DNA of 46,249 nt, taken from IMG/VR virus record IMGVR_UViG_3300032401_000021, positions 1-46,249 of that record. The stretch is one strand, 5' to 3'. The number at the start of each line of letters is the position of its first letter. The stretch's first letter is position 1. The notes under the pieces were generated by a model. It was not told the origin of the DNA, ran no database searches, and saw nothing but the letters and a program-made list of their open reading frames with translations. The translations under genes were made by a program, and so were the position numbers. Source of the stretch: a virus. Positions 7,077 through 23,875 of this stretch are shown piece by piece.

Positions 7077-8651
7077 TTATCTCACCGTTAGATACATTCT
7101 TTTCGCTAATAACATATATCCGGTCGCGAACATATAGTGATCAGGCTTTGATCCGTGGATCCAACTATACTCTTCTTTATCTTCGTCGAATACTCTAACT
7201 GAATTCGTCATTTGATCATAGTAGTTTGGAATCTTTCTCGCATTCTTTGGAAGAAGAATTTTCCTCAAAAGAACATTCTCTTTAACATTGTCCAAGAACG
7301 CTGTTCTTATCTGAGAGATCGTTTTCGTTTGCCTATTGAAAGAGAATTCCCTATTCTTAGAATTCACATTACAATCGCATCCTGTCCAACTATTGACCAA
7401 CTTCCTCGCTAATCTAATCTCCGGCATTGAGTCTATGACAAAGAACTTTACGTTATATGCTCGGAACAAGGTTATTATTTCTTCATAACCTCCTGAGACC
7501 TCTCCCAGATAAACCGTTCTCAACAAGTCCGAAGACAAGACTTCCGCGATATGTATGTGGAGTAGTCCACCTACATCTATCCCCGCGACGCAATTCATCT
7601 TACTCGTGTCGGGCATTATGTAATCTTCCCGAAGCTCGTCTAACATCTCATACGTCAACTTTGATCCTGCAGAGGTGTACGATTCTCCAAAGTCGGAGTT
7701 ATAAACTCTCTGCATCCTTACATCGTTAACCAGACCGGCGGAGAAATTATTTACGATCTCCCGGATTGTACCCGTCCCGGAGAATAGACGAGAGATATGC
7801 TTGCCAGAGAATATCGCGGAACCCTCGTCAACGTATTCTCCCTCGGAATACCGATCAAACGGCTTACCACACACAGAGCAGATCGGTCGTATATCTTTAT
7901 CTAACTCTGCGTCGTAGTCTGGATCTCTTATAACGTAATCCTGTTCTCCGATCTTCTCTACTATGTGATCGAAGAAATTCAACTTATTCCAGTGTCCGCA
8001 TTCGCCCTGAATGTGCCATCGTGACTTCGTGGACTGATCCCACTTTTCATCTAACGCGTCTCCGATATACGAAGGATTCCCTACATATATCATGTGAGGA
8101 TCAGAAGCGTGTCCCAGTCGTTCCTTTGCCATCTCGACGTTATCTGCGTCACACTTTGCGAGCTCGTCTACTATTAACCAGTCAGCAGGAATCTCGACGA
8201 GAGGAACCTCTGACCTCGACCCCGCGAATGCGATAACGCCCGCACCGATATCCTTAAGAGTTTGATTATCGATCATCTCTTTAGAGAGGCTTTGAGACTT
8301 ACTGTCTGACTTATGTTCTTGATAGTATCTCGTGTAAGAGAGGCTCTTCTCGTACCGATTGGTTACGAATCGTTTCATCAATCCGTGCGTAGGTAACATA
8401 TAGAAGATCGTGTTTCCCTTGACCGCCGCCGACCACGAGATTACAATTAAGACTTCGGACACTCCTCCTTGCGTACTCTTCTTATACACTCGGAACCTAC
8501 TCTTGTCCATCAGTATCTCTTTGAGATACTGATGTTTGTCCAGAGTGAGATATCTATTCGTATGTGTCTTATGGTGATTCAGAACAAGCCACAAAGGATA
8601 CTCTTCTTTCTCCAGGAAACGATCTAATGATCGAAACTGTTCATTCTTCAT
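7077..8651 (-). CDS. Terminase large subunit (ATPase plus nuclease)
   Basis: A 524-residue protein. The N-terminal ATPase shows a deviant Walker A (KSTQGGVSE, residues 58-66) and Walker B WLIVDELAKCD (158-168). A Cys/His cluster (CGHWNKLNFF and ICSVCGKPF, about 220-270) matches the zinc-binding insertion of GpA-type terminases. The C-terminal RNase H-like nuclease starts with CVAGIDVGG (about 350) and ends with HGSKPDHYMFATGYM carrying the last acidic residue. It drives DNA into the prohead and cuts the concatemer. It overlaps the small subunit gene by 4 bases. Confidence 0.93.
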   Translation of the reverse strand: MKNEQFRSLDRFLEKEEYPLWLVLNHHKTHTNRYLTLDKHQYLKEILMDKSRFRVYKKSTQGGVSEVLIVISWSAAVKGNTIFYMLPTHGLMKRFVTNRYEKSLSYTRYYQEHKSDSKSQSLSKEMIDNQTLKDIGAGVIAFAGSRSEVPLVEIPADWLIVDELAKCDADNVEMAKERLGHASDPHMIYVGNPSYIGDALDEKWDQSTKSRWHIQGECGHWNKLNFFDHIVEKIGEQDYVIRDPDYDAELDKDIRPICSVCGKPFDRYSEGEYVDEGSAIFSGKHISRLFSGTGTIREIVNNFSAGLVNDVRMQRVYNSDFGESYTSAGSKLTYEMLDELREDYIMPDTSKMNCVAGIDVGGLLHIHIAEVLSSDLLRTVYLGEVSGGYEEIITLFRAYNVKFFVIDSMPEIRLARKLVNSWTGCDCNVNSKNREFSFNRQTKTISQIRTAFLDNVKENVLLRKILLPKNARKIPNYYDQMTNSVRVFDEDKEEYSWIHGSKPDHYMFATGYMLLAKRMYLTVR

Positions 8652-10772: not shown

Positions 10773-11333
10773 ATGGAAGAAAACAAAATTAACGAAATCC
10801 TATTAGCGCATAGCCGGTGGATTGCAGGAGGTAAGGATGGAGTTCGAGCCGATCTTCGGGGAGCCAATCTTAGGGGATTCGATCTTCAGGGAGCCGATCT
10901 TCGAAGAGCCTTTTTACAGGGAGCCGATCTTCGAAGAGCCTTTTTACAGGGAGTCGATCTTCGGGAAGCCAATCTTCAGGGAGCCGATCTTCGAAGAGCC
11001 TTTTTACAGGGAGCCGATCTTACAGGCGCCGATCTTACAGGCGCCGATCTTACAGGCGCCGATCTTACAGGCGCCGATCTTACAGGCGCCGATCTTACAG
11101 GCGCCGATCTCATTAGTGGCAGGAAGAAAAAGATTAAGATGAAAAGACTCGCAAACAGAGCGGGTAGATATGCGCTCAATATCTTGGTCGCGTTAGATCA
11201 GTTAATTAACGCTGTTCTTCTCGGCGATCCTAAAGAGACAATCTCGGGCAGAGTCGGTCGTGTAGCGCCGAACTCCAGAATCGCAAAAAGAGATAGACAA
11301 ATTGATGTTCTATCAGAACGATCATTGTCGTAA
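10773..11333 (+). CDS. Pentapeptide-repeat protein with C-terminal phage domain
   Basis: A 186-residue protein starting at ATG 10773 behind AGGAGGAGG. Residues 1-24 form a short cap (EILLAHSRWIAGGKDGVRADL) shared with the second pentapeptide gene. Residues 25-113 are pentapeptide repeats of the A(D/N)LxG type, ending with six perfect DLTGA units coded by six identical 15-bp copies (11016-11105). Such repeats form a right-handed quadrilateral beta-helix and, in Qnr/MfpA relatives, mimic DNA to bind gyrase. The role here is unknown. Residues about 123-186 start with Met (MKRLANRAGRYALNILVALD) and then LINAVLLGDPKETISGR, a pattern found as a stand-alone small phage protein. That segment may be a fused or internally translated domain. 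Confidence 0.87.
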   Translation: MEENKINEILLAHSRWIAGGKDGVRADLRGANLRGFDLQGADLRRAFLQGADLRRAFLQGVDLREANLQGADLRRAFLQGADLTGADLTGADLTGADLTGADLTGADLTGADLISGRKKKIKMKRLANRAGRYALNILVALDQLINAVLLGDPKETISGRVGRVAPNSRIAKRDRQIDVLSERSLS

Positions 11334-12301: not shown

Positions 12302-13153
12302 ATGAATAAAGATAAGATTAAAGAAATTCTATATCTACATCTATCCTGGATTAACCAGTGTGCGGGTGGAGTTCGAGCCGATCTTAAAGGCGCCGATCTT
12401 AAAGGCGCCGATCTTAAAGGCGCCGATCTTAAAGGCGCCGATCTTAAAGGCGCCAATCTTCAGGAAGCCAATCTTCAGGAAGCCCATCTTCAGGAAGCCA
12501 ATCTTCGGGGAGCCAATCTTCGGGGAGCCAATCTTCGGGGAGCCAATCTTCGGGGAGCCAATCTTCAGGGAGCCAATCTTCAGGAAGCCGATCTTAAAGG
12601 AGCCAATCTTCGGGGAGCCAATCTTCAGGAAGCCAATCTTCAGGAAGCCAATCTTCAGGAAGCCCCTCTTCAGGGAGCCCATCTTAAGGGAGCCCATCTT
12701 CGGGGAGCCAATCTTCGGGGAGCCAATCTTCGGGGAGCCAATCTTCAGGGAGCCAATCTTCAGGGAGCCCATCTTCGGGGAGCCAATCTTCAGGGAGCCA
12801 ATCTTCAGGACGCAAATTTCAACGAAGACTATCTAATCTCCTTGACTTCGATACTTCCCGAAGGAACTTTAGTGGGGTATAAGAAGTGTCTAAATCGTGT
12901 AGTAGTTAAGTTGGAGATTCCTTCGGATTCTCGAAGGAGCAATGCAACAGGAAGAAAGTGTCGCGCCGAATACGTTAAAGTGTTGGATGTTTATGGAGCA
13001 GAAAGAGGGACGTCTTCCTACAATCAAAACACACATTACGAGAAGGGTGAGATCGTTACTTGCGACAACTGGGAAGAATGCCGGTGGAGAGAGTGTTCCG
13101 GCGGAATTCATTTCTTTCTCACGAAACGGGAAGCCGAAGGTTATCTGCTGTGA
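12302..13153 (+). CDS. Pentapeptide-repeat protein with DUF5758-like C-terminal domain
   Basis: A 283-residue protein. Residues 1-24 repeat the cap of the first pentapeptide gene (EILYLHLSWINQ, then GGVRADLKG). Residues 25-172 hold about 29 A(N/D)LxG pentapeptides, coded by a 15-bp degenerate tandem repeat, and should fold as one long beta-helix of seven or so coils. Residues 173-283 form a globular domain with GTLVGYKKCLNRVVVKLEIP, RRSNATGRKCRAEYVKVL and WRECSGGIHFFLTKREAEGY. These match the DUF5758 pattern often attached to pentapeptide repeats in phages and large viruses. Function is unknown. A DNA-mimic or host-interaction role is possible. Confidence 0.9.
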   Translation: MNKDKIKEILYLHLSWINQCAGGVRADLKGADLKGADLKGADLKGADLKGANLQEANLQEAHLQEANLRGANLRGANLRGANLRGANLQGANLQEADLKGANLRGANLQEANLQEANLQEAPLQGAHLKGAHLRGANLRGANLRGANLQGANLQGAHLRGANLQGANLQDANFNEDYLISLTSILPEGTLVGYKKCLNRVVVKLEIPSDSRRSNATGRKCRAEYVKVLDVYGAERGTSSYNQNTHYEKGEIVTCDNWEECRWRECSGGIHFFLTKREAEGYLL

Positions 13154-13880: not shown

Positions 13881-14178
13881 CGGAGAAAAGACAGTAAACA
13901 TTGAGGGCGAAGATATGTGGACAGCCAGATCCTTCGCCGAACTCACCCAAAGATCCGTGCGAGTAGTAAGAAAGTTAGTCTTGTACGGGAATCGAATAAG
14001 AAAGCTGAAGGGAAAAACTATCAACGGTCGTATGTACATATACGAACAAGAATTGTTTGATTTTGAGTTCACGACCGGAGGTAGACCCGCAGATATGGGA
14101 GATTTTGTAGAAAGATTTTATATGGAAGAAGGAGAACTACTCCGAGAGGAGGCGTGTGTTAAACCATGCCGAAATTAA
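13867..14178 (+). CDS. Helix-turn-helix / MerR-like DNA-binding protein
   Basis: A 103-residue protein starting at ATG 13867, inside the end of the HU-like gene. Residues about 19-55 (WTARSFAELTQRSVRVVRKL, then a YGNRIRKLKGKTINGRMYIY wing) form an excisionase/MerR-type winged helix. The C-terminal 35 residues are acidic. It is probably a small transcription or replication regulator. It overlaps the primase gene start by 13 bases. Confidence 0.75.
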   Translation: MLEINGEKTVNIEGEDMWTARSFAELTQRSVRVVRKLVLYGNRIRKLKGKTINGRMYIYEQELFDFEFTTGGRPADMGDFVERFYMEEGELLREEACVKPCRN

Positions 14179-15779
14179 ATGCTCTACAGATCCAGGAGTT
14201 TATGAACTATTTCGGCGGATCTCAATATGTTTACGGAGAATTTATTCCTTCGGAAAAGGATGAGACCACTGGAAAAATGGAGGGGAGATATAGCCTCGTA
14301 TCCAATAAGCTGCTCACAATAGAAGAATATAGAGATCATTTAGAAGGGGATAAGGGACTGGGAATAGTTCCCGTAGACGATAAGGGACTTTGTCGTTTCG
14401 CTGCGATAGATATAGATATTTATAGCTTGGATATGAATATGTATGTGGAAGCCATAGAGAGAGTGAGTTTCCCTATCGTCCCTTTCCGCTCAAAGAGCGG
14501 CGGTCTTCATTTCTTTACATTCTTTAAGAGCGCCGTTCCTGCGACGAAGGCGATCGATCTCATGAGAAAATTCTCTTCTCTTTTGTCCGTAGACTTACTG
14601 GTTAAGTCCAAGAAGAAGGGGGGAGTAGAAATTTTTCCAAAGCAGACAAAGACAAATAGCAAGAATAAAGGGAACTTCCTGAATCTGCCCTACTTCAATT
14701 TTAAGTCGACGAAACAGACGGCTTTGCGGGGCGGAAAAGAGTTAAGTCTAACAGAGGCACTTGTCTACATTAGGGATAAGTTGACGACGTTAGACGAGGC
14801 GGAGAACTTTATACACAATCTCGAATACAACGATGCTCCTCCTTGTTTGCAACAGATCTATATCTTAAATCCGTTTGACTATATGACGGGTAGGAACACG
14901 TTTCTTTTTTCTTTCGGAATATACCTTAAGAAGAAAGACGAAGATAGCTTTGAACAAAATCTCATAGACCTGAATGACTATCTAAAAGATCCGTTAACCA
15001 ATACGGAATTGGAAAGAACTGTTATCTCTTCTCTTAAGAAGAAAGATTATACTTATAAGTGCAAAGAGTCACCATGCGTAGATTTCTGTTCCAAGAAGCT
15101 GTGTAAAGAAAGAGAATATGGTATCGGGAAGAACGAAGGATACTTTTCGTCCGTGGAGTGCGGGCAGCTCTATCAGTACAGGTTGGATCAGCCCTACTAC
15201 GAATGGGAGGTGAGATTGCAAGGACAGAAAGAATTCGTTAAGTTGAGGTTTAAGACGGAAGAAGAGATAATCAGACAAGATATGTTCTTGAGGTTATGTA
15301 TGAGAGAGCTCCATGAGCTCCCTTCTAAACTAAAACAGATCGAATGGTTTTCTAAAGTGAACGCAGCTTTGAAGGAGATCGTAAGCGTATCCGTCGACAA
15401 GGATGAGGACACTTCGCCATATTCTCTGTTCCTAATATTAGTCTCCGACTTCTTAACGGGTCAAGTCTTTGCGGAGACGAGGGAACAGATAAGTTTACAC
15501 AGGGTCTATTTTGATCTTGAGAGTCAAGAATATTGGTTCCGGACAAGTGATCTTCAAAACTATGTCGTGAATACGAAGCAATTTAAACATTTTCTTCCGT
15601 CGGAGTACCATTGGCTATATCGTCAAATGGGGTGTGAGCCAAAGACAATAAGAATATCTCCGGAGAAAACCATTCGCGTCTGGTCTTTATCCAAAAAGAA
15701 ATTGGAAGATTTCGGAAAGATTACAGTTTACGAAAAGTTTCAGCCGGATTTTAAGAAATACACAGAAGAAGATTTTTGA
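14166..15779 (+). CDS. Archaeo-eukaryotic primase (AEP) superfamily protein
   Basis: A 537-residue protein. The catalytic core shows IDIDIYS (81-87, the metal-binding aspartates), then PFRSKSGGLHFFTFF (106-120, the SxH motif), and later GVEIFPKQ (153-160). These are the three AEP motifs of primase-polymerases. A cysteine cluster at 299, 304, 308 and 313 (CKESPCVDFCSKKLCKE) followed by a YGIG motif resembles the metal-binding part of the phage and TOTE-type AEP proteins. It would prime DNA synthesis for the phage family A polymerase. The C-terminal 180 residues have no recognised motif and no helicase domain is fused. Confidence 0.88.
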   Translation: MPKLNALQIQEFMNYFGGSQYVYGEFIPSEKDETTGKMEGRYSLVSNKLLTIEEYRDHLEGDKGLGIVPVDDKGLCRFAAIDIDIYSLDMNMYVEAIERVSFPIVPFRSKSGGLHFFTFFKSAVPATKAIDLMRKFSSLLSVDLLVKSKKKGGVEIFPKQTKTNSKNKGNFLNLPYFNFKSTKQTALRGGKELSLTEALVYIRDKLTTLDEAENFIHNLEYNDAPPCLQQIYILNPFDYMTGRNTFLFSFGIYLKKKDEDSFEQNLIDLNDYLKDPLTNTELERTVISSLKKKDYTYKCKESPCVDFCSKKLCKEREYGIGKNEGYFSSVECGQLYQYRLDQPYYEWEVRLQGQKEFVKLRFKTEEEIIRQDMFLRLCMRELHELPSKLKQIEWFSKVNAALKEIVSVSVDKDEDTSPYSLFLILVSDFLTGQVFAETREQISLHRVYFDLESQEYWFRTSDLQNYVVNTKQFKHFLPSEYHWLYRQMGCEPKTIRISPEKTIRVWSLSKKKLEDFGKITVYEKFQPDFKKYTEEDF

Positions 15780-15789
15780 GAGGGATGAA

Positions 15790-16023
15790 ATGTTCGACTA
15801 CACCAAGGCAAAGAATATTGCGAGTGATATACTATCCGATAAGGTAAGAATATCAACTGCGACATTTCCAGGATACTACGGAGATGGATACGAGACCTGG
15901 ATATTTAGTAGAGATGATCGAGTTAAGACGAGACAGATCTGGCACAGGAACAAGAATAAGGCTCTATCCGTGCATGGTCATATTGTTAAGAATCTAAGGA
16001 AGGTAATCCTTGCACAATCTTAA
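15790..16023 (+). CDS. Hypothetical small protein between primase and helicase
   Basis: A 77-residue basic protein behind GAGAGGG. It has an aromatic central stretch (ATFPGYYGDGYETWIFS) and basic C-terminus (GHIVKNLRKV). The pattern resembles small phage proteins of the replisome region, but no family is assigned. The downstream helicase starts 14 bases before its stop. Confidence 0.7.
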   Translation: MFDYTKAKNIASDILSDKVRISTATFPGYYGDGYETWIFSRDDRVKTRQIWHRNKNKALSVHGHIVKNLRKVILAQS

Positions 16024-17455
16024 CCTAAACTTAATCTTTGGAGCTCCAGGATGTGGAAAGACCACGTATCTATTGAATCTATTAGAGAATCTATTTAGGA
16101 GATATTCTCCAAACGAGATAGCTTACGTGTCGTTCACCAAGAAGGGGGCTTACGAAGGAAGAGATCGCTTCGTTAAAAATTTTGGGTATTCCGAAGAAGA
16201 GCTGCCCTACTTCAGAACTATTCATTCTCTTGCTTTTCGCGCCTTAAAGATGAGTCGTTACGATATGATAAGTCAACGGAATTACAGAGAATTCTCGAAA
16301 GCCATGAATATGAACTTTCTCGGATATTACACGGAGGACTTGATTCATAATGATGATATGTATCTTGCGTATTGGTCGTTGAGAAAGAACAATCTTAAGA
16401 TGTCAAAATGTATGGATCCGTACATAGAATTTTCTAAATCCAAAATGGTAGGGGAGAACTATGAGCGATATAAGAAAGAAACTGGTATAAAGGATTTTGA
16501 CGATCTATTACAGATATTTATTTCGGAGAATAGACCCTTGCCCGTGAAGGTCGTGATAATCGACGAGGCGCAAGATCTAACCACTCTTCAGTGGAGATTT
16601 TGTGAAATTGCGTTCAAAGATTGCAAGGAGATGTACGTCGCTGGAGACGACGATCAGGCAATCTATGAATGGAGCGGAGCCGACATAGACTTTTTTCTAA
16701 ATCTTAAAAAGTTATCTGGAACAAAGGTAAACATTTTGGATCAGTCTTATAGGTTAAGAGAGAACATACTTAATCTTTCTAAAAGGATATCTGGACAGAT
16801 CAAGACCCGAGTAGACAAGCAATTTAGACCTATCGACAAGGGAGGAAACATATTCTTCCACAGAGACATAAGAGAGTTGACTTTTTCGAGCGAGGGCTCT
16901 TATTTTCTTCTTGCGAGAAATAGAATGTTTCTTAAGAAATTCGTCGAACAGGTCAGGGATCTCGGTTTGGTTTATAGTTTCAAAGATAAGTTGTCATTAG
17001 ATAAGGATTTGATCAAGGCTATCTACACCTACGAGGGATATCGTAAGGAAGGGTTTTCCAAATTGAATGGTAATTCGTGGGTACAATCTTTTCTTCGCAA
17101 AGATTGTACCATAACAAAAGAAATGAGATGGTTCGAGGCGTTCGGCATAGACGAGGACTCTGAGAAATACTGTCGCGCTCTACTTAAGAATAAGAATCAG
17201 AATGCTGAAAGCAGTATTAGGATAGATACTATACACGGTGTCAAGGGGGGAGAAGCGGATAACGTAGTCCTTTTCTTAAACGTGACCAGAAGGGTTTACG
17301 AGAACTTTGAGTTGAATCAAGATTCTTTGGATTCAGAACTGCGCTGTCTCTACGTCGCGATAACGAGAGCGAAGAAGAATCTGCACTTAATTCTGTCCGA
17401 TTCAAAATTCGGATATGAAAAATTTATAGGGGGAAAAGAGAATGGTAGTCGATAA
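16010..17455 (+). CDS. UvrD/Rep-like superfamily 1 DNA helicase
   Basis: A 481-residue protein starting at TTG 16010 behind AAGGAAGG. Walker A is GAPGCGKTT (11-19). Motif Ia/Ib follows, then motif II VVIIDEAQDL, motif III AGDDDQAIYEWSGAD, motif V SIRIDTIHGVKGGEADNVVL and motif VI LRCLYVAITRAKKNL. This is a compact UvrD/PcrA-type 3'-5' helicase, shorter than the roughly 700-residue host enzymes because of reduced 1B/2B domains. It may unwind the fork or act in recombination. It overlaps neighbours on both sides, as expected within an operon. Confidence 0.92.
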   Translation: MHNLNLNLIFGAPGCGKTTYLLNLLENLFRRYSPNEIAYVSFTKKGAYEGRDRFVKNFGYSEEELPYFRTIHSLAFRALKMSRYDMISQRNYREFSKAMNMNFLGYYTEDLIHNDDMYLAYWSLRKNNLKMSKCMDPYIEFSKSKMVGENYERYKKETGIKDFDDLLQIFISENRPLPVKVVIIDEAQDLTTLQWRFCEIAFKDCKEMYVAGDDDQAIYEWSGADIDFFLNLKKLSGTKVNILDQSYRLRENILNLSKRISGQIKTRVDKQFRPIDKGGNIFFHRDIRELTFSSEGSYFLLARNRMFLKKFVEQVRDLGLVYSFKDKLSLDKDLIKAIYTYEGYRKEGFSKLNGNSWVQSFLRKDCTITKEMRWFEAFGIDEDSEKYCRALLKNKNQNAESSIRIDTIHGVKGGEADNVVLFLNVTRRVYENFELNQDSLDSELRCLYVAITRAKKNLHLILSDSKFGYEKFIGGKENGSR

Positions 17456-18365
17456 TCTGGAAGGGATAAGTTATAGGATTGTGATTCCGAGTAGAGCAAG
17501 ATCAGGTATGCTCCGAGACAATCGCGGAGTATGGAAATATGTGGATAAGGATAAACATTTTCTTCAGGTTTATGTAAGAGAAGAAGAATACGACGATTAC
17601 GGAGGAGACAATAGCCCTGTGCCTCTAATCCGGGTTGATAATGAGTACAGCACTTTGGAGAAAAGAAAGTTTGCTCTCGTGTCTGCCCACAGAGATGGGA
17701 TAGAGTTCCTGGTGTTCCTTGACGACGATATCGTAGTAGGATTCAGAAAAGAAGAATGGCCTTCTAAGTATTGCAATAAGAAAGAAGAGGTCTTGTCTAA
17801 CGAGGTGTTCGATAAGATGTTAGTCGAGAGCATAGGTCTATGTTGCGGGAGTATTCCGTTAGTGGGTTTTCCGATGAGGCAGGTCGGGTTCGTTCTTTCT
17901 GGAGATAACCCTTTCTATAAGACCCAGCCGATTATAAGATTCGCCTGCTATCATACACCCACTATGATAAGAGAGGGTCTCCATGAGAAAGATTTGGGAG
18001 CTCCCTATATGTGTGATCGCTTCTTTCAATTAAGCCTCTTAGATAAAGGGTATATGACGATAACTAATGCGAGATATTCTGTGGACGATAGCGGAACGGG
18101 AGCGTTAGGAGGATGTCAGGTTACTCGTACAGTAGATCTTCAGAACAAGTCTGCTATGAATCTTAGAGAAAGATTCCCTTCTCGGATAGAATTGAAGACA
18201 AAGTCTAACGGATCTTGGATCGGTCCAAGATGGGACTGTAAGATTAAGTGGTCGTCTTTCTTGCAGAAAACAGAAAGTAAGAATCTGTTTAACAAGATCG
18301 CATTCGGAAAGATCTTAGGAAAGTTTCCTTCTTACGGTGAGCACCTCTTCGAGGTGAATCTATGA
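17442..18365 (+). CDS. TAGT-like glycosyltransferase (DNA base modification)
   Basis: A 307-residue GT-A-type protein. The N-terminal strand reads YRIVIPSRARS (11-21), followed by a nucleotide-sugar-binding core with FLVFLDDDIVVG (89-100), whose Asp-Asp-Asp is the metal-binding DxD motif. This combination matches the TET/JBP-associated glycosyltransferase (TAGT) type found in phages with modified pyrimidines. It would transfer a sugar from a nucleotide-sugar to a hydroxymethyl base on DNA, in the cytoplasm. It is the first of six linked modification or nucleotide genes and overlaps the next one by ATGA. The substrate is inferred, and the family match is by motif only. Confidence 0.78.
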   Translation: MVVDNLEGISYRIVIPSRARSGMLRDNRGVWKYVDKDKHFLQVYVREEEYDDYGGDNSPVPLIRVDNEYSTLEKRKFALVSAHRDGIEFLVFLDDDIVVGFRKEEWPSKYCNKKEEVLSNEVFDKMLVESIGLCCGSIPLVGFPMRQVGFVLSGDNPFYKTQPIIRFACYHTPTMIREGLHEKDLGAPYMCDRFFQLSLLDKGYMTITNARYSVDDSGTGALGGCQVTRTVDLQNKSAMNLRERFPSRIELKTKSNGSWIGPRWDCKIKWSSFLQKTESKNLFNKIAFGKILGKFPSYGEHLFEVNL

Positions 18366-19225
18366 TAGATCAAAATGTAGATTTGTTTCTAAAAACCGCG
18401 GAAGAAAGACACTTGATTTATATAAGAAAACGTATCTTGGATTCCCCAAAGCCGTGGACAGAGGATGAGATTTTTCAAAGATTCTTTTTCTGCAATCTCT
18501 TCAGACAATACGATAAGTGTTCTCAATGGATGATAGACAATATAATCCCGAAAAGACGATGGGATCTCATAGTCTTGTATAGATATATATCGACGCATAA
18601 GACGTATCGTAAACTCCAAGATAACATAGATCTAAATTCTTTAGACGAGGCCGAAAGATTTCTTTTGGAGATGAAGAAGGAGGGAGAGACAGTGTTCTCT
18701 TCGTGCTTTATCCGAAATCCCCACTCATGCGAAGGAGTTGTGGGAGCACACCAAGTTCCGTTCATACTCATAAAAGAAATGAAGAGAAACGGCTGGAGTT
18801 CTGACGGATCTATGAGAGATTTTCTCTGGACAACTCTCCAAGAACTGCATAGAGAGCTCATGAGATATGGGTCGGTCGGTAAATTCATGGCTTACGAGTA
18901 TGCTTGCGATATGGAGTACACGGACGAATTCCATCCGACAGATAAGAACGAATGGTGTAGTCTTGGTCCCGGAGCAATGAAAGGGCTGAACATACTCGTA
19001 ACCGGTAGTGCCCATAGGAGATACGACAAGAAAATAGAAAAGGAGTATATACAGGAATTGTATCTTGCGCTCAAGGATAGGATCGAAAGAGAGTTTCCAA
19101 GTGAAACGATTACAATGAGAGAGGTGGAACACTGGTTATGTGAATTCTGCAAGTATGTAAAGTACATGGGGTTCGTTCGATCGGGTGGTCGGGTGAAGTT
19201 TAGAAAGTATGAAGGAGGATGTTGA
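18362..19225 (+). CDS. 5-hmdU kinase helical-domain / aGPT-pyrophosphorylase family protein
   Basis: A 287-residue, mainly helical protein. It has LIYIRKRILDSPKPWTEDEI (about 18-37), then FCNLFRQYDKCSQW, a central FMAYEYACDMEYTD with LGPGAMKGLNILVTG, and finally REVEHWLCEFCKYVKY. These are the conserved blocks of the HMUDK helical domain (alpha-glutamyl/putrescinyl thymine pyrophosphorylase family), a DNA glycosylase-like fold that acts on modified thymine in DNA. In known pathways the kinase domain phosphorylates 5-hydroxymethyl-dU and this fold replaces the pyrophosphate by an amine or amino acid. No kinase P-loop is fused here. It overlaps both neighbours. Confidence 0.82.
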   Translation: MIDQNVDLFLKTAEERHLIYIRKRILDSPKPWTEDEIFQRFFFCNLFRQYDKCSQWMIDNIIPKRRWDLIVLYRYISTHKTYRKLQDNIDLNSLDEAERFLLEMKKEGETVFSSCFIRNPHSCEGVVGAHQVPFILIKEMKRNGWSSDGSMRDFLWTTLQELHRELMRYGSVGKFMAYEYACDMEYTDEFHPTDKNEWCSLGPGAMKGLNILVTGSAHRRYDKKIEKEYIQELYLALKDRIEREFPSETITMREVEHWLCEFCKYVKYMGFVRSGGRVKFRKYEGGC

Positions 19226-20271
19226 TGGATCAAAAAGAAAAGTTTGAGATATTTAAGAAGAGAAGACTCCTTGCATTCGACGAGATTAGGCACATAAAGT
19301 TAGAGCCATTCCACGGATGCAGTTTGAATTGTCCTTTTTGCGGAATTTCCAGAGACAAGATAGAGGCCATGCCGAGAGAAATATTCTACAAGATAATTCG
19401 AGAATTGAATCCCGATAAGTTGAGGTTGATAACTTTATGCGGTCACGGAGAGCCGACTCTTTGTAAGGATATAGAATTGTATATCCATGAATTGAGGAAT
19501 AGATTCCCTACGGCAGTGATGGAGATGTACTCCAATGTCGAGGTCTTCTTAAGATTCGGATTTAAAAAAATGTTGGATGTGTTTGATTCTGGTCTTACCC
19601 ATCTAATGGCCGATCTGTACGGAGACGATAAGTACGATATATTTATATCGGAATTGAAGAAAATTAGAGGAGAAATAAGTTCTCGTAATATAGACGTAGT
19701 CCTCTATAAGGATAGTCCCTATCCTCTATGCACTTATACGAAGCCGAAGCAAAAGAGGTTGGTGATAGCGAGAGAGGTAAGTTCCGATACGTCCGATGCG
19801 TCAAGACGACGACACACATGGGGAGGCAACATCTGCGAGGATAAGATAGAAGAGTATTCAGGAAGAAGACTGGAAGATTTTCCTTTGCAAAAGAGATGCG
19901 TGGATCTTCTAAAATATCTTACGATCTATGTAAGCGGAGACGCGATGATCTGTTGTCGGGATGGAGGAAGAGCAATCTCCGTGGGAAACGTCAAGGAAAA
20001 TAGTCTTTCTGAAATTTGGAACAGCGACGAAGCGCAAATTATTCGGTATCTACTGCACACTAAAAGAAGGGGAATGATTCCTTCTTGCTATTTCTGCACA
20101 CAGCAGAGTTTCCGAGAAGGACTCTATCCCTACTGGGGTAGGGAATACTCGGAAAAAGAAATAGAGGAGGGTCTTAAAAAAATGATGAGAATAAATCAAA
20201 AGAGCGAACTGTGGAAGAATCTAAAGAAGATAGAAACAAGATTACCTGATGTAATCCAAGAGGCACTATGA
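19225..20271 (+). CDS. Radical SAM enzyme with SPASM-like C-terminus
   Basis: A 348-residue protein. I chose ATG 19225 because it lies 6 bases after AAGGAGG; the upstream ATG at 19219 is too close to it. The cluster-binding motif is C32-SLN-C36-PF-C39, the CxxxCxxC of the radical SAM superfamily, followed by a GHGEPTL glycine-rich motif. A C-terminal cysteine cluster (DAMICCRD, then SCYFCTQQ) resembles a SPASM/twitch domain for a second cluster. It would use S-adenosylmethionine to make a 5'-deoxyadenosyl radical. In known thymidine hypermodification pathways radical SAM enzymes rearrange the added side chain, so such a role is likely, but the substrate is unknown. Confidence 0.9.
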   Translation: MDQKEKFEIFKKRRLLAFDEIRHIKLEPFHGCSLNCPFCGISRDKIEAMPREIFYKIIRELNPDKLRLITLCGHGEPTLCKDIELYIHELRNRFPTAVMEMYSNVEVFLRFGFKKMLDVFDSGLTHLMADLYGDDKYDIFISELKKIRGEISSRNIDVVLYKDSPYPLCTYTKPKQKRLVIAREVSSDTSDASRRRHTWGGNICEDKIEEYSGRRLEDFPLQKRCVDLLKYLTIYVSGDAMICCRDGGRAISVGNVKENSLSEIWNSDEAQIIRYLLHTKRRGMIPSCYFCTQQSFREGLYPYWGREYSEKEIEEGLKKMMRINQKSELWKNLKKIETRLPDVIQEAL

Positions 20272-20771
20272 ATATCGAAGACTTTGTTAAGCAGTATCAA
20301 ATTCTTAGGAACATTAAGAGATTCTCTATGGAGTCTGTCATCGTTCCACAAAATCTATGTGAACACGGTTACGGTGTGGGTAATCTGTTCTACTTTATAT
20401 GCAAGGAGCGCGGAATAAAGATCGACGCAGAGCTATTGTTTAGAATATATAACCACGACTTCGTCGAGTCTTTCTCCGGAGACTTGAATAAGAGTGTGAA
20501 GGAATTTGATGAACAGACCCTCTCCTCCTGGAAAGAGATAGAGAATAAGATCGTTCCAAACCACCTCAAGGAATTTTCTGAGAAGAACTTAGAAGATTTT
20601 GTGAAGACGAGCTTCGGAGAAAGAGTTTGGACTTGCTTTCTTCTTGCCGATGCGATAGACGCGGCCTGTTATTGCGAGGCGGAGATAAGTCTGGGGAACC
20701 GTAATCTGGTTAGGGCTCTTACACACTACGTAACCCATATAAAATCTCTGTACGAAATACTGAACAAGTGA
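20268..20771 (+). CDS. HD-domain nucleotide phosphohydrolase (YfbR/DatZ-like)
   Basis: A 167-residue protein with the HD signature: H33 in CEHGYG, H63-D64 in YNHDFVESFSGD, and D128/D131 in LADAID. This matches YfbR-like deoxynucleotidases and phage dNTP phosphohydrolases, such as DatZ. In modified-base phages such enzymes remove the unmodified nucleotide from the pool. No purZ is present here, so 2-aminoadenine synthesis is not indicated. The ATG overlaps the stop of the radical SAM gene (ATGA). Confidence 0.82.
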   Translation: MNIEDFVKQYQILRNIKRFSMESVIVPQNLCEHGYGVGNLFYFICKERGIKIDAELLFRIYNHDFVESFSGDLNKSVKEFDEQTLSSWKEIENKIVPNHLKEFSEKNLEDFVKTSFGERVWTCFLLADAIDAACYCEAEISLGNRNLVRALTHYVTHIKSLYEILNK

Positions 20772-20778
20772 GGTAACG

Positions 20779-21570
20779 ATGGATAACTTAATCGTAAAAC
20801 AAGACAATATGAATATGGTATACTACAAGACGCTCATTAGGTTACTGACGATAGGGACAACGATCACCAATAGACAAGGAGAAACTCTTACGGAATTGAT
20901 CAATCCTACTCTGATCTTGACGAATCCCATTGATTGCTTTTGTACTGTAAGAAAGATGTCTTTCGATTATCTAAAAGGAGAGATGGAATTCTATATGAGC
21001 GGAAGCGATCGATTGAAAGATATCGCAAGATATTCCAAATTTTGGAATAAGTGTTCCGACGATGGAGAAACGATAATCTCTAACTACGGCAAGCTCTTAT
21101 TGCACGATAAGAATTCTTATGGATATACCCAATTCAACTATGCGAAAGAGATGCTGATCCGTAACAAAGATAGTAAGAAAGCGGTTATGACGATTTACGC
21201 TCCGAATCATGCGAAGAAGAGTAATGACAATCCTTGTACAATGTATTTGCAGTTCTTTATCCGGAAAGAACGTTTAGATTTATACGTCAAGATGAGATCG
21301 TCCGATGTGTGGTACGGATTGCCGTATGATATCCCGTTCTTCGTATTCATTCAAACTCTACTTAAAGAAGAATTGAATCAGTCTGGGTATGAATTAGACC
21401 TCGGGGTGTACAATCATCAAGCGGGAAGTCTTCATTTCTATCACAGGAATTTAGAAAAGATACTGGAGACAATTAAGTTTTTCCGCCAAAACTATCGCGA
21501 ATTGTCCGACGAAGAACAGGGGTATCTTTATGAAGAACATATACTTTCTAAATTATGGAGGGGAGAATGA
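20779..21570 (+). CDS. Thymidylate synthase-like pyrimidine hydroxymethylase (dUMP or dCMP)
   Basis: A 263-residue protein of the thymidylate synthase superfamily. Recognised blocks are YMSGSDRLKD (72-81), the SNYG motif (101-104), NPCTMYLQFFIRKERLDLYV with the catalytic C153, and MRSSDVWYGLPYDI (172-185) of the nucleotide-binding site. Phage relatives with PCT...QF and MRSxDVWxG make hydroxymethyl-dUMP or -dCMP from methylene-tetrahydrofolate. D184 sits where thymidylate synthase has Asn, and Asp is found in dCMP-specific enzymes, whereas the adjacent dCMP deaminase supports dUMP. The base therefore remains open. It would supply the modified nucleotide for incorporation by the adjacent polymerase. 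Confidence 0.88.
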   Translation: MDNLIVKQDNMNMVYYKTLIRLLTIGTTITNRQGETLTELINPTLILTNPIDCFCTVRKMSFDYLKGEMEFYMSGSDRLKDIARYSKFWNKCSDDGETIISNYGKLLLHDKNSYGYTQFNYAKEMLIRNKDSKKAVMTIYAPNHAKKSNDNPCTMYLQFFIRKERLDLYVKMRSSDVWYGLPYDIPFFVFIQTLLKEELNQSGYELDLGVYNHQAGSLHFYHRNLEKILETIKFFRQNYRELSDEEQGYLYEEHILSKLWRGE

Positions 21571-22052
21571 CACCATTAGCAAAGGATAACGAGATTAAGA
21601 TTTCTCAAATGGAACTTCTTGAGAATATTTTGAATGCGAGGAAATGGTCGGAAAGAGCGACCTGCCTAAAGAAGAAGGTAGGTGCAGTCTTATATAACTT
21701 AGACGTGCAAGCAATCGTCGGAGTAGGTTGGTCTGGAGCGAAGATTGACTGTAAAGAGTGTGTCCGGAACGACCTCCTGTGGACTCACGATTCTTGCTGG
21801 TCTATTCATGCAGAGATGAGAGCGATCGTTAATGTAGATCCTTCTATAAACCTCGGTAGATCCATAATGTTCTCCACTCACGGTCCTTGTGATCAATGTA
21901 TTAAGTTGTTGTCGTATAAGGGGGTCAGAGCTGTCATCTACGAAAAGCCGTATCGCACAGACTATTCCAAGTGGAATGGACGGATTTTGATCTTGAACTT
22001 ACAGGAGGTATCCAAATGCTCTCTTATAGAGATTACGGAAAAGACGAACTAA
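21567..22052 (+). CDS. dCMP deaminase family protein
   Basis: A 161-residue protein; ATG 21567 overlaps the stop of the previous gene (ATGA) and lies just after GGAGGGG. The zinc site is H81-A-E83 in SIHAEMRAI and PCDQC (107-111) in STHGPCDQC. It has KKKVGAVLYN (36-44) near the start, as usual for the family. It converts dCMP to dUMP, which would feed the adjacent thymidylate synthase-like enzyme and reduce the dCTP precursor pool. Confidence 0.9.
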   Translation: MTPLAKDNEIKISQMELLENILNARKWSERATCLKKKVGAVLYNLDVQAIVGVGWSGAKIDCKECVRNDLLWTHDSCWSIHAEMRAIVNVDPSINLGRSIMFSTHGPCDQCIKLLSYKGVRAVIYEKPYRTDYSKWNGRILILNLQEVSKCSLIEITEKTN

Positions 22053-23875
22053 TTGGAGTAGACATAGAATCTAAAGATCCTTTTCTTAAAGAAAAAGGAC
22101 CGGGAGTATATCGTAAAGATGGATACGTCTTAGGTTGTTCTTTATCTAACGGAGAGATATCTGAATACTATCCTTTACAGCACTACGACACTACGCCCCA
22201 AGAGCGAGAAAAGAATCTCGGATATTTGAAGGATCAATTAGGAAAGAACAATAGGAAAGTGTTCGCGAATGGTCTTTACGATTTAGACTGGTTAGAGAAT
22301 TACGAAGGAATAAAAGTTTCCGGAAGATTCGAAGACGTTCAGATCGCGGAGCCTTTGTTGGACGAATACAAACGATCGTATTCTTTGGATTCTTTGTCTA
22401 AGGAATATCTTAAAGAATGCAAGGGGTATAAGAATATTTATGATCAAGTTTTTAAGGATCATCCGGAGGTCAAGAAAGAAAGCGATATCAGAAAGATTCT
22501 TTGGAAATTACCTCAAGATCTCGTCGCTGAATACGCTCAAAACGACCCGAACTTAACCGTAAGAGTATTCAGGGAGCAAGAGAAGAAGCTAAACGCGCAA
22601 GATCTTAAAGGGGTGTACGATCTTGAGATGAGCCTCTATCCACTCTTACTCCTGATGAGAAAAACGGGCGTGAGATTGGATGAGAACAGGTTGACCCAGT
22701 TGGGATTAGAACTATCTGACGTAAGATGCGAATTACAAGAGAAACTCAATCAGAACCTTGACGCAGAGATTAACGTCAATAGCGCTAACGATCTTGTTAA
22801 GATATTTGACAAGTACGACTTACCCATAACTTACGGAGAACCTACTCCAAAGATGATGGAGAATGGGATCTATCGGGGCAATCCCACGTTCGATAAGAGG
22901 GTATTGAGTCGTATAGATCATCCAATAATCAAAGATGTAAAAGCGATAAGACACCTCACCACTTTGTTCAGTCTGTTTCTTATTCCGTATCCTGATCTCG
23001 TAGTGTCTGGAAGATTGCACTGTCAATTCAATCAGTTAAGGGGAGACGAGTATGGGACAGTCAGTGGTAGATTCTCTTCGTCTAATCCAAATTTACAACA
23101 AGTCTCCGCAAGAAATGAGGAAGACTACTCCGATTCGGATAATCCTTTAATATCGGGACAGGCTATAAGAAAGCTGTTTCTTCCTGAAGAAGGTTGTTTT
23201 TGGTTAAAAGACGATTACTCTCAGGTTGAGTATAGACTCATATCTCACTTCGCTATTGGAGAAGGGGCAGACACTATACGATCAAGGTATAGAGATGACC
23301 CGAAAACAGATTACCATCATGAGATGGGTTTGATGGCGGGAATAGAAGATCGTAAGATCGTTAAGACTCTAAATTTTGGAGCCGCTTATGGAATGGGTCC
23401 AAACACGATGGCCGATATCTATGGTTGGGATAAACTCACCGCTCGCTCTATCTATGATCGTTATCATAAGAAGCTCCCGTTCATCCGAGAAACTGCGAAT
23501 CGTGTCGCGGCTAAAGCAAAAAGGGTTGGGTACATACGAACGATATTGGGTCGTCGAGCAAGATTGGTGGATCAAGATAAGTCTTACGTTATGTTCAATC
23601 GTTTGATTCAAGGATCTGCCGCGGACATTATGAAAAAGGCTATGAGCGATTCTTACAGGGCAGGAATATTCAATGTTCTACATCCTCACCTGACTGTGCA
23701 CGACGAAAAGGATGTGAGCGTGCCAAGAACTAAAGCAGGTTTAGAGGCGGCTAAAGAGCTCCAGAACATCTTAGAAAACTGCGTTAAGTTGAGAGTCCCG
23801 TTAATTGTAGATTGTCAGATTGGAGATTCCTGGGGAGAATTGAGTATAGTCGAAGACTGGAATAAAATAACTTAA
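22016..23875 (+). CDS. polA-like: Family A DNA polymerase
   Basis: A 619-residue protein; ATG 22016 lies 8 bases after AGGAGG and inside the end of the deaminase gene. The N-terminus has a 3'-5' exonuclease domain (GVDIESK, D16/E18; then FANGLYDLDWL and YAQNDPNLT). Polymerase motif A is DDYSQVEYRL, motif B RKIVKTLNFGAAYGMG with the Lys and Phe of the O-helix, and motif C LTVHDEKDVSV. The motif-B Phe, in place of Tyr, is the E. coli-like type that discriminates against dideoxynucleotides. No 5'-3' exonuclease domain is present, so it is a phage replicative type. It would incorporate the modified nucleotide. Confidence 0.95.
   Translation: MLSYRDYGKDELIGVDIESKDPFLKEKGPGVYRKDGYVLGCSLSNGEISEYYPLQHYDTTPQEREKNLGYLKDQLGKNNRKVFANGLYDLDWLENYEGIKVSGRFEDVQIAEPLLDEYKRSYSLDSLSKEYLKECKGYKNIYDQVFKDHPEVKKESDIRKILWKLPQDLVAEYAQNDPNLTVRVFREQEKKLNAQDLKGVYDLEMSLYPLLLLMRKTGVRLDENRLTQLGLELSDVRCELQEKLNQNLDAEINVNSANDLVKIFDKYDLPITYGEPTPKMMENGIYRGNPTFDKRVLSRIDHPIIKDVKAIRHLTTLFSLFLIPYPDLVVSGRLHCQFNQLRGDEYGTVSGRFSSSNPNLQQVSARNEEDYSDSDNPLISGQAIRKLFLPEEGCFWLKDDYSQVEYRLISHFAIGEGADTIRSRYRDDPKTDYHHEMGLMAGIEDRKIVKTLNFGAAYGMGPNTMADIYGWDKLTARSIYDRYHKKLPFIRETANRVAAKAKRVGYIRTILGRRARLVDQDKSYVMFNRLIQGSAADIMKKAMSDSYRAGIFNVLHPHLTVHDEKDVSVPRTKAGLEAAKELQNILENCVKLRVPLIVDCQIGDSWGELSIVEDWNKIT

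Follow-up and report, generated by a model that had tools for sequence, protein, structure and literature searches.

Pyrimidines in phage DNA are modified by several systems to which the locus analyzed here can be compared. In M6/YuA-type thymidine hypermodification, an operon-like block encodes an HMUDK_hel protein, a thymidylate synthase homologue, a YfbR-like HD protein, a family A DNA polymerase and a deoxycytidine monophosphate (dCMP) deaminase, together with a 5-hydroxymethyldeoxyuridine (5hmdU) kinase, an amino-acid:DNA transferase (ADDT, formerly aGPT), a pyridoxal phosphate (PLP) enzyme and a radical S-adenosylmethionine (SAM) enzyme; in M6 itself, these include the P-loop kinase gp54 (HMUDK_HMUD1), the HMUDK_hel protein gp55 and the ADDT gp51. 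The T-even phages carry glucosylated or gentiobiosylated 5-hydroxymethylcytosine (5hmC), for which they use the hydroxymethylase gp42, alpha- and beta-glycosyltransferases (alpha-GT, beta-GT) and TAGT, a family of DNA glycosyltransferases whose T6 member has a GT-A fold and which adds the second glucose in T2 and T6 (PMC13216743). In the 5hmC carbamoyltransferase phages found by MetaGPA, a synthase of dCMP type and a dCMP deaminase are followed by a tailoring transferase (PMC8670742). We studied IMG/VR record IMGVR_UViG_3300032401_000021 (46,249 nucleotides, positions 1-46,249; hereafter the window), a viral sequence in which a cluster of six genes is, judging from its sequence, best called an M6-type core with a cytosine-type synthase plus a TAGT/BtrN-like radical SAM tailoring module. 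The reading that we favor, with a probability of about 0.5, is that this cluster attaches a sugar to cytosines in the phage genome and edits it by radical chemistry.

The six open reading frames (ORFs) are contiguous and translationally coupled at 17442-22052, all on the + strand. Adjacent genes overlap by 4-16 bases, except for a gap of 7 bases between the HD and synthase genes. The features of the cluster are:

17442..18365, + strand: TAGT-like GT-A glycosyltransferase, 307 aa (Pfam, PHROG, conserved residues, AlphaFold2 (AF2) fold)
18362..19225, + strand: HMUDK_hel protein, 287 aa, all-helical (Pfam HMUDK_hel 1.2e-42)
19219..20271, + strand: BtrN-like radical SAM enzyme with twitch/SPASM domain, 350 aa (Pfam Radical_SAM and SPASM, PDB matches)
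19318..19341, + strand: radical SAM cluster motif C34-x3-C38-x2-C41 (invariant in 10 homologues)
19897..20100, + strand: SPASM/twitch auxiliary [4Fe-4S] domain with C227, C245 (C246), C290 and C293 (Pfam, BtrN alignment, homologue invariance)
20268..20771, + strand: YfbR-like HD 5'-deoxynucleotidase, 167 aa (Pfam YfbR-like 5.3e-17, metal-site residues)
20779..21570, + strand: thymidylate synthase homologue of dCMP type, 263 aa, nucleophile C153 (PDB matches, T/D signature)
21235..21240, + strand: codons of C153 and T154, the nucleophile and specificity position 147 (alignment)
21328..21330, + strand: codon of D184, specificity position 177, equivalent to T4 Asp179 (alignment)
21555..22052, + strand: dCMP deaminase, 165 aa, HAE at 85 and PCDQC at 111 (Pfam dCMP_cyt_deam_1 3.7e-10)

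A preliminary description of the window had placed a pyrimidine hypermodification cluster of six coupled genes at 17442-22052, and the ORFs were found there. Pfam recognizes the families that it had named (TAGT, HMUDK_hel, radical SAM/SPASM, HD, thymidylate synthase-like and dCMP deaminase), and the three profiles that it had singled out for verification all match (TAGT with 29.7 bits against a curated cut-off of 27.5, HMUDK_hel at 1.2e-42 and SPASM at 2.1e-12), but the aGPT region that it had seen in the second protein corresponds to no domain. The cluster thus supports a hypermodification function, and the base, which had been left open, is pointed to by the active site of the synthase (see below). 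Compared with M6/YuA-type phages, the window has the shared block but no HMUDK_HMUD1, ADDT or PALP, its synthase is of dCMP type, a TAGT gene is added and its radical SAM enzyme is SPASM/BtrN-like, in contrast to M6 gp53, which lacks a SPASM match. With the T-even phages it shares the dCMP-type synthase signature, the dCMP deaminase and TAGT, to which it adds HMUDK_hel and a radical SAM enzyme; no alpha-GT, beta-GT or deoxynucleoside monophosphate (dNMP) kinase was recognized in the subset of 30 window ORFs scanned with Pfam. It likewise has the dCMP-type residues and the deaminase of the MetaGPA phages, but its tailoring would consist of glycosyl transfer and radical SAM chemistry instead of carbamoylation.

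The synthase homologue (Pfam Thymidylat_synt 2.5e-21) has its best PDB matches in MilA, a CMP hydroxymethylase, and in gp42, the T4 dCMP hydroxymethylase, and its Cys153-Thr154 and Asp184 align with the Cys-Thr and Asp of both enzymes. T154 and D184 correspond to E. coli positions 147 and 177, which separate cytosine-modified from unmodified phage contigs (PMC8670742). All five 5hmdU-type phages compared (M6, ViI, phiW-14, PaMx11 and Sonora) have Asn at both positions, so that the window, with Thr154/Asp184, departs from the dUMP-type hydroxymethylases of M6/ViI-type phages, which have Asn at 177. It resembles the T-even phages in its predicted Cys/Thr/Asp active site and in its DNA glycosyltransferase family, as recognized by hidden Markov models and a modeled GT-A fold. 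Among the sampled relatives, T147 and D177 always occur together and every synthase without this pair has N/N; the T/D pair occurs in the window, L004, L057, L058, L009/L061, L013, L015, L060, L032 and L063, and likewise in L071. This signature makes cytosine the likely target, and we consider that the modified base is probably cytosine. The synthase homologue is proposed to be a dCMP 5-hydroxymethylase; the choice of dCMP is well supported by the active site, and the hydroxymethyl group would be its presumed product.

Position 177 indicates the base and not the product, and the RB69-type homologue from the same superfamily is a 5-hydroxy-dCMP synthase (PMC13390438). One could therefore imagine that the window enzyme makes 5-hydroxy-dCMP or 5-methyl-dCMP and that, as in arabinosylated DNA of the RB69 type, the ring oxygen carries the sugar directly. 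Yet the closest solved relatives of the synthase are hydroxymethylases and the cluster has no arabinose-precursor genes, which makes this an improbable variant. Another scenario concerns the dCMP deaminase, always adjacent within the close group of relatives: it could turn 5-hydroxymethyl-dCMP (hmdCMP) into 5-hydroxymethyl-dUMP, so that the final base would be a glycosylated 5-hydroxymethyluracil (5hmU). TAGT can indeed accompany this base, since L021, L030 and L034 combine TAGT and HMUDK_hel with a dUMP-type synthase. Nevertheless, dUMP-type synthases are common in the same families and would give 5hmU more directly than a route through hmdCMP, and T4-type phages carry a dCMP hydroxymethylase and a dCMP deaminase together while their DNA still contains 5hmC; we would be surprised if this scenario were correct. 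The combination of HMUDK_hel, TAGT and a dUMP-type synthase is also found in L022, L046 and L049, and L021 and L022 have a radical SAM gene as well; these six (L021, L022, L030, L034, L046 and L049) are probable glycosylated 5hmU phages.

The first protein of the cluster matches TAGT (PF20691, E 7.6e-7) and also PHROG 842, the T-even DNA glycosyltransferase family (2.6e-17). A DDD metal/nucleotide-sugar motif occupies residues 94-96, and D95, D192, GG223-224 and R229 are invariant in 16 homologues. A sequence search of the PDB was unproductive, and the structures matched by the AF2 model (mean confidence, pLDDT, 79) are GT-A enzymes (PcManGT best, 5.5e-7; TarP, RmlT, LH3). The enzyme therefore probably transfers a sugar onto the 5-hydroxymethyl group in DNA. 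TAGT without alpha-GT and beta-GT was reported in 288 of 753 genomes, for which novel transferases were suggested (PMC13216743); the window cluster appears to fall in this class.

The second protein belongs to the family of M6 gp55, and the HMUDK_hel match spans nearly all of it. We rejected the possibility that it is an aGPT/ADDT fusion, as HMUDK_hel is its only Pfam domain and a search of the record for ADDT found nothing at E<=1. We also rejected a 5hmdU kinase hidden at another place in the record: HMUDK_HMUD1 likewise gave no hit at E<=1, and the sole Walker A motif (GxxxxGK[ST]) among ORFs of at least 90 aa is that of the UvrD helicase. The partners of HMUDK_hel were surveyed with strict thresholds in 48 records plus the window (49). 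A kinase or ADDT is present in none of the 15 TAGT-positive records and in 22 of the 34 others (Fisher p 1.7e-5, uncorrected for ancestry). In the HMUDK_hel tree, the TAGT label changes at least 3 times on well-supported branches and 7 times on the best tree, which suggests that the partner of HMUDK_hel seems to have been swapped repeatedly. HMUDK_hel is thus proposed to be a base-presenting partner of TAGT, the pairing coming from gene co-occurrence and the role being conjectural. Tandem pairs of HMUDK-type P-loop kinase genes lie beside HMUDK_hel in L036 (1817-2994) and L045 (6839-7986).

The third protein contains both SPASM (2.1e-12) and Radical_SAM (3.8e-8) domains and has no equivalog in NCBIfam. 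BtrN was the only PDB match in a single-sequence search (2e-9) and the top match of a profile built from ten family members (4.6e-32; runner-up 7.5e-9). BtrN, the 2-deoxy-scyllo-inosamine dehydrogenase of the butirosin pathway, is a twitch radical SAM enzyme with a four-cysteine auxiliary cluster which carries out the two-electron oxidation of a hydroxyl of this aminocyclitol (PMC9012708). Both enzymes share the radical SAM core and the twitch auxiliary cluster; C245, C290 and C293 align with BtrN C187, C232 and C235, and the invariant C227 is likely to be the fourth ligand. The CxxxCxxC motif and all the auxiliary-cluster cysteines are invariant in 10 homologues. The window enzyme differs from BtrN in being about 80 residues longer and encoded in a phage DNA-modification operon. 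An M6 gp53-type radical SAM enzyme was rejected, M6 gp53 being a weak Radical_SAM match without SPASM. A single-sequence scan of viral contigs for the radical SAM protein gave no match. We propose that the enzyme is a sugar-hydroxyl dehydrogenase or epimerase; its class comes from the sequence and its substrate is conjectural.

The distribution of this enzyme bears on its substrate. Besides the window, 8 of the 48 related records have SPASM radical SAM genes, and all nine are TAGT-positive (p 2.4e-6, uncorrected for ancestry), while none has a kinase or ADDT. A general Radical_SAM search recovered the same set above the cut-off, with sub-cut-off matches in G004, G041, M6 and at a second place in G018. 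Moreover, the radical SAM gene adjoins or overlaps TAGT in L013, L021, L028 and L071. The exclusive association with TAGT and this adjacency lead us to propose that the radical SAM enzyme edits the sugar installed by TAGT. The preliminary description had combined TAGT-like glycosylation with a radical SAM plus aGPT-type enzyme; glycosylation and radical SAM functions are indeed encoded, but the record has neither ADDT nor kinase, and SPASM accompanies TAGT and never ADDT. It had also considered two parallel modifications, which we judge less likely than a single pathway in which the radical SAM enzyme acts on the TAGT-added sugar. In one such parallel scheme, the radical SAM enzyme would oxidize the 5-hydroxymethyl group (for instance to 5-formylcytosine) while TAGT glycosylates elsewhere. 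The hydroxymethyl group, as an alcohol, would suit the two-electron alcohol oxidation typical of BtrN, yet a 5hmC oxidase should not require TAGT, whereas SPASM occurs only with it (9/9) although the synthase is nearly universal; the scheme has little to recommend it. A different scenario, unlikely although less so, retains the glycosylated cytosine and has the radical SAM enzyme act before transfer, on the free donor (a nucleotide sugar or an aminocyclitol), to provide an unusual sugar for TAGT. The restriction of SPASM to TAGT-bearing records fits a donor-making enzyme equally well, BtrN itself works on a free aminocyclitol (PMC9012708) and arabinosylating phages have sugar-precursor genes beside the transferase (PMC13390438). 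Nevertheless, no gene for making a donor, such as a nucleotidyltransferase or a sugar kinase, is part of the cluster. The duplication of both TAGT and radical SAM genes in one relative (L058) does not discriminate between this scenario and the editing of a sugar already attached to DNA.

Viral contigs were scanned with HMUDK_hel, radical SAM and TAGT, and bacterial and archaeal genomes were scanned as well. Three further viral contigs have all six genes in unchanged order: L004 (of which L056 and L059 are the same contig), L057 and L058; their proteins are about 34-59% identical to those of the window. This recurrence indicates that the cluster is not a chance assembly. L057 has a tandem pair of TAGT genes. 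In L058 the TAGT and radical SAM genes are each present in two copies, and a small ORF (7545-7928) resembling an HNH homing endonuclease separates the second TAGT from the first radical SAM gene. The scan of bacterial and archaeal genomes gave L071, a contig of 7.4 kb assigned to a Thermoplasmata metagenome-assembled genome, whose cluster differs only in having a B12-binding radical SAM enzyme instead of the SPASM one; the gene of this enzyme (1608-2993) stands between TAGT and HMUDK_hel. The archaeal affiliation of the contig may reflect either misbinning or an unusual host. In L013 (3920-6893), TAGT is overlapped by the gene of a different SPASM radical SAM enzyme, after which come two glycosyltransferase-like ORFs, a gene set that suggests a longer DNA-bound glycan. 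Neither a megablast of the region nor tblastn with the TAGT and radical SAM proteins found a match in 50,697 phage records. The recurrent cluster is flanked by UvrD-like helicase and DNA polymerase A genes, which in the window are:

16010..17455, + strand: UvrD-family helicase, conserved upstream neighbour, outside the chemistry (Pfam, L004 synteny)
22016..23875, + strand: family A DNA polymerase, conserved downstream neighbour (Pfam, L004 synteny)

These elements can be assembled into a pathway. The synthase homologue would first turn dCMP into 5-hydroxymethyl-dCMP. The HD nucleotidase and the dCMP deaminase would then adjust the nucleotide pool in favor of the modified nucleotide; the metal site of the YfbR-like HD protein (H...HD...D) is present as H33, H63-D64 and D128, and the protein is proposed to remove the competing canonical dNMP. 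The family A polymerase is expected to use the modified dCTP and would incorporate it. After replication, HMUDK_hel would bind DNA and present the base, a role that it would otherwise play for the kinase in M6-type phages, and TAGT would add a sugar to the hydroxymethyl group. Finally, the BtrN-like enzyme would abstract a hydrogen from the attached sugar, converting a hydroxyl into a ketone or causing an epimerization. The product would likely serve in the evasion of host nucleases, including those that recognize ordinary glucosyl-5hmC. In its complete form, the proposal is that a radical SAM enzyme, BtrN-like here and B12-dependent in one relative, oxidizes, epimerizes or methylates the TAGT-placed sugar on 5hmC in DNA, and that HMUDK_hel is a base-presenting subunit shared by either kinase or glycosyltransferase; jointly, these two claims are tentative and we hold them at somewhat short of an even chance.

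Several observations weigh against the favored reading. The chemistry of the pathway is inferred, and the similarity to BtrN defines a class of reaction and not a substrate. No hmdCMP kinase or T4-type dCTPase was recognized, although some of their work may be done by the HD nucleotidase. The co-occurrence statistics ignore shared ancestry, and the phylogenetically independent pairs all agree but include only 3 supported pairs, short of significance. G033/L045 has a sub-threshold TAGT match beside a kinase and ADDT, and counting G033 changes the p-value of the partner survey to 1.5e-4. As for HMUDK_hel, a sequence search of the PDB was unproductive and a fold search of its AF2 model (pLDDT 90.9) against the PDB gave no significant match, so that its base-presenting role rests on co-occurrence. 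Several of the non-significant fold matches are helix-hairpin-helix (HhH) DNA glycosylases (TM-score up to 0.47), a likeness that at most hints at base flipping.

Other features of the window concern the genome at large. A primase with an AEP-TOTE domain (14166-15779) belongs to the replication block upstream of the cluster. Two pentapeptide-repeat proteins (10773-11333 and 12302-13153) are built from 15-bp tandem units, the second with a C-terminal DUF5758. An identical 21-bp tandem repeat (CGCCTTAAGAGTGGTCGTATC) lies within a tail-region ORF at both contig ends (1-113 and 46133-46249); given this shared array, the record, listed as linear in IMG/VR, may represent a circularly permuted genome that is close to complete.

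The preliminary description knew of no system with this exact set of genes, and we too found no description of the six-gene combination in the literature searched; the original thymidine-hypermodification papers and a 2013 computational survey lay outside that search, so an earlier mention is possible. If the proposal is true, the cluster would represent a radical SAM tailoring of glycosylated DNA that yields a cytosine bearing a carbonyl or an altered sugar. It points to sugar-tailored phage cytosines beyond the glucose, gentiobiose and pentose types treated in the literature consulted, and to radical SAM enzymes as a class that acts on a DNA-bound sugar. About one third of the sampled HMUDK_hel records have HMUDK_hel with a glycosyltransferase and without the kinase, and annotating such HMUDK_hel/TAGT phages as thymidine-hypermodified from the name of the Pfam family is therefore probably wrong; the two synthase residues at 147/177 can serve as a rapid test for the modified base. 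New DNA glycans bear on restriction, CRISPR and DNA-glycosylase defences, and it is plausible that this cluster is a new way to hide DNA from the defences of bacteria.

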